From Actinomycetota bacterium (GTDB lineage Bacteria; Actinomycetota; Thermoleophilia; Gaiellales; Gaiellaceae), in NCBI GenBank assembly GCA_003161615.1, contig PMOB01000006.1, positions 1 to 64,000 on the forward strand: DNA of 64,000 nt, read 5' to 3'. This document shows, piece by piece, positions 12,672-14,361 of this stretch. The translations under genes were made by a program, and so were the position numbers. Position 1 is the stretch's first letter, and each line of letters begins with the position of its first letter. The notes under the pieces are model-generated. The model was not told where the DNA came from. It worked only from the letters and a program-made list of their open reading frames with translations, and ran no database searches.

Positions 12672-13889
12672 ATGACGGATTCGCTGATCCCTCCGTCGAT
12701 CACGGGTACGGGCTTGAGCTTCCCGCCGGGCGGCAGCGTGCTCGACCACGCCTTCGGCCAGAGCGACCCGTACACGCTCGGGGTCGAGGAGGAGTACATG
12801 CTCCTCGACGCCAAGACGTTCGACCTCGTCCAGCACATCGACACGGTGCTCGCAGCCGTCGCCGGTCATGAGCTCGAGCCGCGGATCGACTCCGAGCTCA
12901 TGCAGTCGGTGCTCGAGGTGGCGACGCCGGTCTGCCACACGCCGGCGGAAGTCCGGCAGCAGCTACTCCGCATCCGCAGCTACGTCTGCGACGTCGCGCG
13001 GGAGAAGGGCCTGCGCGTCGGCTCGGCAGGCACGCATCCGTTCTCGCTCTTCGAGCGCCAGCGGATCACGGCGAAGGACCGCTACCGGGCGCTCGTCGAC
13101 CAGATGCAGTACATCGCGCGTCGCGAGCTGATCTTCGGGATGCACGTGCACGTCGCGGTCGACGACGCGGAGAAGGCGATCCAGGTCGTGAACGCGCTGA
13201 TTGCGCACCTGCCCGAGCTCGTCGCGCTGTCCGCGAGCTCCCCGTTTTGGCGCGGCGAGCCGACCGGCCTCCGCTCCTCTCGGCACATGGTCTTCGCCGC
13301 CTTCCCGCGCTCGGGCCCGCCGCCGCGCTTCCGCGACTACTCCGACTACGCGCAGGTCGTGAACCAGCTGGAGAAGACCGGCTGCATCCAGGACTACACG
13401 CACATCTGGTGGGACATCCGTCTCCATCCGCGCCTCGGCACCATCGAGATCCGGATCTGCGACGCGGTGACGCAGCTCGACGACGTGATCGCGATCACCG
13501 CGTACTGCCAGGCGCTCGTCAAGCACTACGCGGAGCTCGTCGACCGCGGCGAGGAGACCCCGTCCTTCCACCGGATCCTGACGACCGAGAACAAGTGGCT
13601 CGCCGCGCGCTACGGGCTCAGCGCGCCCGTGATGGACCTCCACACCGGCCGGCGCAACCGTATTCCGGTCGCCGCGCTTGTGCGGCGGACGCTCGAGACG
13701 ATCGAGCCGCACGCGCGCGACCTCGGCTCCGAGGAGGAGCTCGCGGGCCTCCAGGAAATCCTCAGCCGCGGCAACGGCGCCGACCGTCAGCTCCAGGTCT
13801 TCAACGCCAACAAGGACATCGTCGAGGTCGCCCGCGAGATCGCGGAGGCGACCGAGGTGGCGGCGGAGCCCGAACCCGCGGCCGCGTAG
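12672..13889 (+). CDS. carboxylate-amine ligase, glutamate-cysteine ligase type 2 (YbdK-like)
   Basis: YTLGVEEEYMLLD, FGMHVHVAV, HIWWDIRLHPRLGTIEIRICD. Confidence 0.9.
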   Translation: MTDSLIPPSITGTGLSFPPGGSVLDHAFGQSDPYTLGVEEEYMLLDAKTFDLVQHIDTVLAAVAGHELEPRIDSELMQSVLEVATPVCHTPAEVRQQLLRIRSYVCDVAREKGLRVGSAGTHPFSLFERQRITAKDRYRALVDQMQYIARRELIFGMHVHVAVDDAEKAIQVVNALIAHLPELVALSASSPFWRGEPTGLRSSRHMVFAAFPRSGPPPRFRDYSDYAQVVNQLEKTGCIQDYTHIWWDIRLHPRLGTIEIRICDAVTQLDDVIAITAYCQALVKHYAELVDRGEETPSFHRILTTENKWLAARYGLSAPVMDLHTGRRNRIPVAALVRRTLETIEPHARDLGSEEELAGLQEILSRGNGADRQLQVFNANKDIVEVAREIAEATEVAAEPEPAAA

Positions 13890-13899
13890 ACTCGACGCC

Positions 13900-14361
13900 G
13901 TGCTCGAGGTTGGGGAAAAGGCGCCGCTCGAAGCCGGCGTGTGGACGACGCCGCGTGAGCGCGCGACGATCGGCGACTTATTGCACGAACGCCCGCTCCT
14001 GCTTCTCTTCTATCTCTTCGACTGGTCGACGACCTGAACAAGTGAGCTCGAGCTCCTGCGTGACAGGAGAGAGGAGCTCCAGGCGGCCGGCGTCGAGCCG
14101 TACGCGATCTCGCGCGACTCGCCGTACACGCACGTCGCGTGGATGCAGGCGCTCGACCTCGACTTCCCGCTCCTCTCCGACTGGAACGCCGACGCGACGC
14201 ACGGCTTCGGCGTCGAGTACGAGCACAACGGGATGAGGGACGTCTCGCGCCGGAGCGCCTTCCTCCTCGACCGCGACGGCGTCGTGCGCGGCGCGTGGGC
14301 GTACGCGAACGACGAGCTGCCCGACCTCGACGAGCTGATCGCCGCGGCGAAGCTCTTGTAG
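13900..14361 (+). CDS. peroxiredoxin-like redoxin, candidate selenoprotein with in-frame TGA (Sec) at codon 46
   Basis: GTG at 13900, one frame to 14361 interrupted only by TGA 14035-14037: VLEVGEKAPLEAGVWTTPRERATIGDLLHERPLLLLFYLFDWSTT[U]TSELELLRDRREELQAAGVEPYAISRDSPYTHVAWMQALDLDFPLLSDWNADATHGFGVEYEHNGMRDVSRRSAFLLDRDGVVRGAWAYANDELPDLDELIAAAKLL; TGA occupies peroxidatic Cys of AhpE/BCP-type Prx. Confidence 0.82.
14044..14079 (+). promoter_or_regulatory. Candidate bacterial SECIS element
   Basis: GAGCTC-gag-CTCCTG-CGTGA-CAGGAG-agag-GAGCTC: two 6-bp stems, 5-nt apical loop with G at position 2, 21 nt between TGA and apical loop. Confidence 0.7.

Follow-up and report, generated by a model that had tools for sequence, protein, structure and literature searches.

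A near-invariant hairpin behind the in-frame UGA of an actinobacterial peroxiredoxin gene as a probable bacterial SECIS element

The current model of the bacterial SECIS element (bSECIS) describes a stem of 4–16 bp carrying an apical loop of 3–9 nt, in which base 1 or 2 is a G, most often with G or U next to it on the 3' side (PMC13188914). The loop is placed 16–37 nt from the UGA, and the minimum free energy is at or below −7.5 kcal/mol (PMC13188914). In the E. coli fdhF SECIS, G23 and U24 lie in the apical loop and a bulged U17 is required (PMC8659212). Among the proteins decoded in this way, experiments have verified the peroxiredoxins with selenocysteine (Sec) of the TxxU type (PF00578) as a selenoprotein family (PMC13188914), and in the Sargasso Sea survey only one family was more abundant than the Sec-peroxiredoxins (PMC1088965). 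Both the Sec-peroxiredoxins and the bSECIS model were thus already known, and what appears to be new here is a divergent subfamily member. The family is not named in the main text of the deep-Sep paper, and a literature search combining Thermoleophilia and selenocysteine returned no relevant paper in the literature covered, which was mostly that outside subscription journals.

The window analysed here is the first 64 kb of one contig (C8) of the genome, and the features discussed below are collected in Table 1. Within the window, the peroxiredoxin frame is interrupted by a single TGA and is otherwise open to its stop codon. When the TGA was translated as U, the product matched Pfam AhpC-TSA (2.1e-22), and phmmer alignment to 2cx3 and other solved peroxiredoxins placed U46 at the position of the peroxidatic cysteine.

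Table 1. Coordinates of the peroxiredoxin locus and of the selenocysteine genes in the same genome
Feature	Location	Strand	Remarks
AhpC/TSA peroxiredoxin ORF, predicted selenoprotein	13900..14361	+	GTG start; 153 residues; Sec = residue 46 (TGA translated as U)
In-frame UGA, inferred Sec codon, at peroxidatic Cys position	14035..14037	+	phmmer alignment; TGC/TGT in 7 homologues
Putative bSECIS core hairpin CUCCUG-CGUGA-CAGGAG	14053..14069	+	≥5-bp stem: 71/72 TGA vs 0/7 Cys; null 0.0026; CGT/AGG codon bias
Apical loop CGUGA, G-U at loop positions 2-3	14059..14063	+	CGUGA 69/72, CGGGA 3/72 TGA homologues
Outer GAGCUC stem, 5' arm	14044..14049	+	pairs with 14074-14079 in fold; conservation not above null; probably incidental
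Outer GAGCUC stem, 3' arm	14074..14079	+	pairs with 14044-14049 in fold; conservation not above null; probably incidental
GCS2/YbdK-type carboxylate-amine (glutamate-cysteine) ligase	12672..13889	+	NCBIfam and Pfam GCS2; ends 10 nt before selenoprotein start
selA	C8:102959-104182		same contig as window
selB	C8:105606 onward		same contig; beta-barrel and C-terminal winged-helix domains (SelB-wing_3)
tRNA-Sec, anticodon TCA	C8:108619-108709		same contig
selD	contig C24		same genome
Formate dehydrogenase alpha (FdhA), second selenoprotein (L108)	G000 C17:62781-64637		one in-frame TGA

We searched 129 genomes of the same order and found the protein in 79, with a TGA-interrupted match in 73 and an uninterrupted Cys match alone in 6. 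Detailed comparison was made between 72 TGA genes and 7 Cys genes, in which this codon is TGC or TGT. One of the seven comes from a TGA genome, where it is an additional copy, and the TGA match of G083 was excluded from the 72 because its TGA sits four residues later. Downstream of the TGA, the reading frame was conserved to its end among the 72 homologues. The nearest named relatives are metagenome-assembled Thermoleophilia, which makes this class the likeliest source of the window. When ~400 genomes were sampled across the class, close family members turned up in this order only. More distant peroxiredoxins with an active-site TGA were found elsewhere in the phylum. A different hairpin was observed in L110–L112 and L121 from this distant group, with a varied stem and a loop reading AGUU or GUU, and by sequence the stem changes look compensatory. 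A related peroxiredoxin with the motif FDFTGS(M/P)EGGU, whose TGA is located four residues later, was noticed in G083 (L102) and G085 (L121) and perhaps represents an additional Sec subfamily.

A first-pass annotation, made from the sequence alone, had described a bSECIS-like hairpin at 14038–14079 with two 6-bp stems and a 5-nt loop having G as its second base, 21 nt after the UGA. Sequence and coordinates agreed exactly with this description: 3' of the UGA come ACAAGU, the first GAGCUC, GAG, CUCCUG (14053–14058), the CGUGA loop, CAGGAG (14064–14069), AGAG and the second GAGCUC. RNAfold of 14025–14095 returned the same double stem at −30.8 kcal/mol, with a z-score of −2.17 against dinucleotide shuffles, 7/200 of which were equally good. 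This single-sequence fold is modest evidence for the hairpin. The spacing of 21 nt lies inside the bSECIS range, as do the sizes of the 5-nt loop and of the inner stem, which has 6 bp in the window and 5–8 bp in 71/72 homologues. The free energy was −8.7 kcal/mol for +13 to +35, that is, below the threshold of the model, and −7.4 kcal/mol for the bare 17-nt core. Loop positions 1 and 5 (C and A) were unpaired. As the stem ran without a bulge in the fold and in the homologues, it offers no counterpart to the bulged U17 of E. coli. When further copies of the core were sought across the genome, 14053–14069 was the sole perfect match; a single match with 3 mismatches was located elsewhere, with no UGA in place.

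Conservation separated the two kinds of genes sharply. Positions +16 to +32 after the UGA, reading CTCCTGCGTGACAGGAG, were nearly unchanged across the 72 TGA genes. The 5-nt loop was closed by an inner stem of five or more pairs in 71/72 TGA genes but in 0/7 Cys genes, and the stem reached at least 6 pairs in 67/72 TGA genes. As a null, we used synonymous recoding of the same proteins, in which the inner stem formed in only ~0.3% of cases. The two loops encountered, CGUGA (69/72) and CGGGA (3/72), both carry the loop G. The arginine codons of the LLRDR motif followed the same division: the first was CGT in 69/72 TGA genes versus 0/7 Cys genes and the second AGG in 71/72 versus 1/7 (Fisher p of 4e-8 and 2e-7, relatedness of the genes being ignored), whereas elsewhere in these genes CGT and AGG account for 5.2% and 4.4% of arginine codons. 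Cys genes used CGC or CGG at these codons with one exception, G058 (L089), which retains AGG and may, by its looks, carry a decayed SECIS. Conservation at the RNA level hence extended beyond that of the protein and was tied to the Sec codon.

On the maximum-likelihood tree, the Cys genes required four changes on well-supported branches, and the hairpin was gone in each of these four independent Sec/Cys changes. An independent-pairs test agreed in 4/4 cases, four events being too few to reach significance. Compensatory changes, which the first-pass annotation had suggested looking for, were few. The seventh pair (+15/+33) was G-C in 42 genes and C-G in 5, and G stood at +33 in 5/6 genes with C at +15, so that true covariation is present on a small scale. 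The innermost pairs were invariant in TGA genes and gave no classical covariation, and the other pairs varied too little to count; a core this constant leaves little room for such a signal. Support for a putative bSECIS comes instead from invariance at synonymous sites and from its loss in the Cys genes.

Could the TGA be an ordinary nonsense mutation or a true stop, with the hairpin a by-product of protein constraint? LLRDR is conserved in the Cys proteins as well, and the fold of the single sequence is moderately unusual at most. Yet the TGA stands at one codon in 72 homologues, in front of a frame conserved to its end, and the rare synonymous codons are fixed in TGA genes only. Together with the near failure of synonymous recodings to form the stem, this codon fixation led us to reject protein constraint alone as the cause of the inner palindrome; it was this explanation that the first-pass annotation had named as one that would speak against its proposal. 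Its opinion that the TGA is no simple nonsense mutation was borne out, and we regard the nonsense or stop explanation as highly improbable. Equally little credit goes to the idea that UGA is reassigned or read by another route (a near-cognate tRNA, or a code in which UGA means Trp or Cys), the hairpin acting as a generic pause or readthrough stimulator. Stem-loops 3' of a stop codon can indeed stimulate readthrough in general, but the neighbouring genes are normal under table 11, the codon alternates with Cys and not with Trp, and the genome holds a complete Sec apparatus. Moreover, the loop shows the SelB-type G-U, and a loop G-U is also seen, on other stems, in FdhA and in some of the more distant TGA peroxiredoxins.

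The extent of the element was a separate question. A bSECIS comprising the full double stem at 14044–14079, as first described, agrees with the lowest-energy fold computed for the window sequence. However, the outer GAGCUC arms were fully paired in 10/72 homologues, not above the 15% of synonymous recodings, and many homologues have GAGATG where the window gene has GAGCTC. We therefore rejected the outer stem as a part of the element, which should be given as 14053–14069, and consider the larger version unlikely. The outer stem is probably incidental and bears no sign of selection, so that only the inner half of the double stem originally proposed was upheld. That a genuine bSECIS at 14053–14069 directs Sec insertion into a Sec peroxiredoxin is the reading that we favour, at a probability of roughly 95%. 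Its basis lies in the sequence itself, in conservation, in the absence of the hairpin wherever Cys is used and in the machinery; the initial assignment as a bSECIS is likewise supported by the published constraints, by synonymous conservation restricted to TGA genes and by the complete set of Sec genes.

As regards this machinery, selA, selB, selC and selD, which together define the Sec-decoding trait, are all found in this genome. The TGA of its fdhA gene is followed by a hairpin unlike that of the peroxiredoxin, with a loop beginning in G-U. At least one of tRNA-Sec, selB, selA and selD occurred in 73/73 genomes with a TGA-interrupted match. tRNA-Sec or SelB was detected in 57/73 genomes with the UGA peroxiredoxin versus 28/56 other genomes of the order, and tRNA-Sec, selB or selA in 59/73 versus 29/56. 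The other 14 UGA-peroxiredoxin genomes had selD alone among the four markers; all are drafts, most of them <90% complete. The co-occurrence of tRNA-Sec and SelB with the UGA peroxiredoxin was weaker than hoped, probably as a result of fragmented drafts.

From these elements, we infer the steps from RNA recognition by SelB to catalysis and re-reduction of the enzyme as follows. SelB-GTP carrying Sec-tRNA-Sec would bind the apical loop, at the G-U of positions 2-3, via its C-terminal winged helices, and this binding would coincide with the presence of the UGA in the decoding site. Sec-tRNA would then enter at the UGA in place of release factor 2. The predicted product is a 153-residue peroxiredoxin with a peroxidatic Sec and no cysteine, a "1-Sec" enzyme that would reduce peroxides. 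Because the window protein has 0 Cys over its whole length, its oxidised Sec would need an outside reductant, presumably a thiol or thioredoxin. Cys was likewise missing from every position in 55/72 Sec homologues. At least one additional Cys (e.g. at +26 or +74) was observed in 6/7 Cys homologues (L061, L062, L064, L084, L089 and L098), which perhaps reflects gain of a resolving Cys.

The gene immediately upstream encodes a GCS2 ligase, which adjoined the peroxiredoxin in 17/30 loci examined. The two genes possibly form an operon, and the retention of the ligase beside the peroxiredoxin in these loci makes it plausible, on genomic context, that it is a thiol partner of the latter. More tentatively, and with the odds against it, one may speculate that SelB of this lineage reads the stem sequence too, the 17-nt core CUCCUGCGUGACAGGAG being a lineage-specific, bulge-free class of SECIS. 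As part of this speculation, the "1-Sec" peroxiredoxin without the Pro would form a subfamily of its own, in many loci next to a gene for a GCS2 ligase, from which its reducing thiol might come.

Standard annotation would end this gene at the UGA, and a residue at the heart of catalysis would thereby be lost from view in many soil actinobacteria that are uncultured. With 72 Sec and 7 Cys homologues and four switches, the family also amounts to a clean natural experiment, in which an RNA signal is written in rare codons with Sec and absent with Cys. Being near-invariant, this bSECIS should be useful for probing recognition by SelB proteins other than that of E. coli.

In comparison with known systems, the protein resembles the TxxU family, including PrxU of Eubacterium acidaminophilum, in its membership of the AhpC/TSA family, its peroxidatic Sec and the Ser/Thr at −3 from it. 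It differs in that the window protein and 69/72 homologues have Leu in place of the Pro at −7 of the PxxxTxxU (PxxxT/SxxC) motif, in its score of 43.5 bits with the NCBIfam PrxU equivalog NF040737 against a curated cut-off of 270, and in the complete lack of Cys from most copies. The Leu and the low score lead us to view the window protein as a divergent relative of the TxxU family, apparently a separate subfamily and not PrxU itself. As for the RNA, the hairpin shares with the fdhF SECIS its place right after the UGA and the G-U of the apical loop, whose positions 2-3 we take to be the equivalents of G23/U24; by the same assumed register, the distance between UGA and loop exceeds that of fdhF by roughly one codon. 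Unlike the E. coli element, it has a continuous stem of 6–8 bp without the bulged U17. A near-invariant 17-nt core, no bulged U and no active-site Pro are what make this system unusual. The hairpin stays within the limits of the bSECIS model and differs from it by a 17-nt core sequence almost invariant across an order; the probable bSECIS system is unusually well preserved in this soil-actinobacterial lineage.
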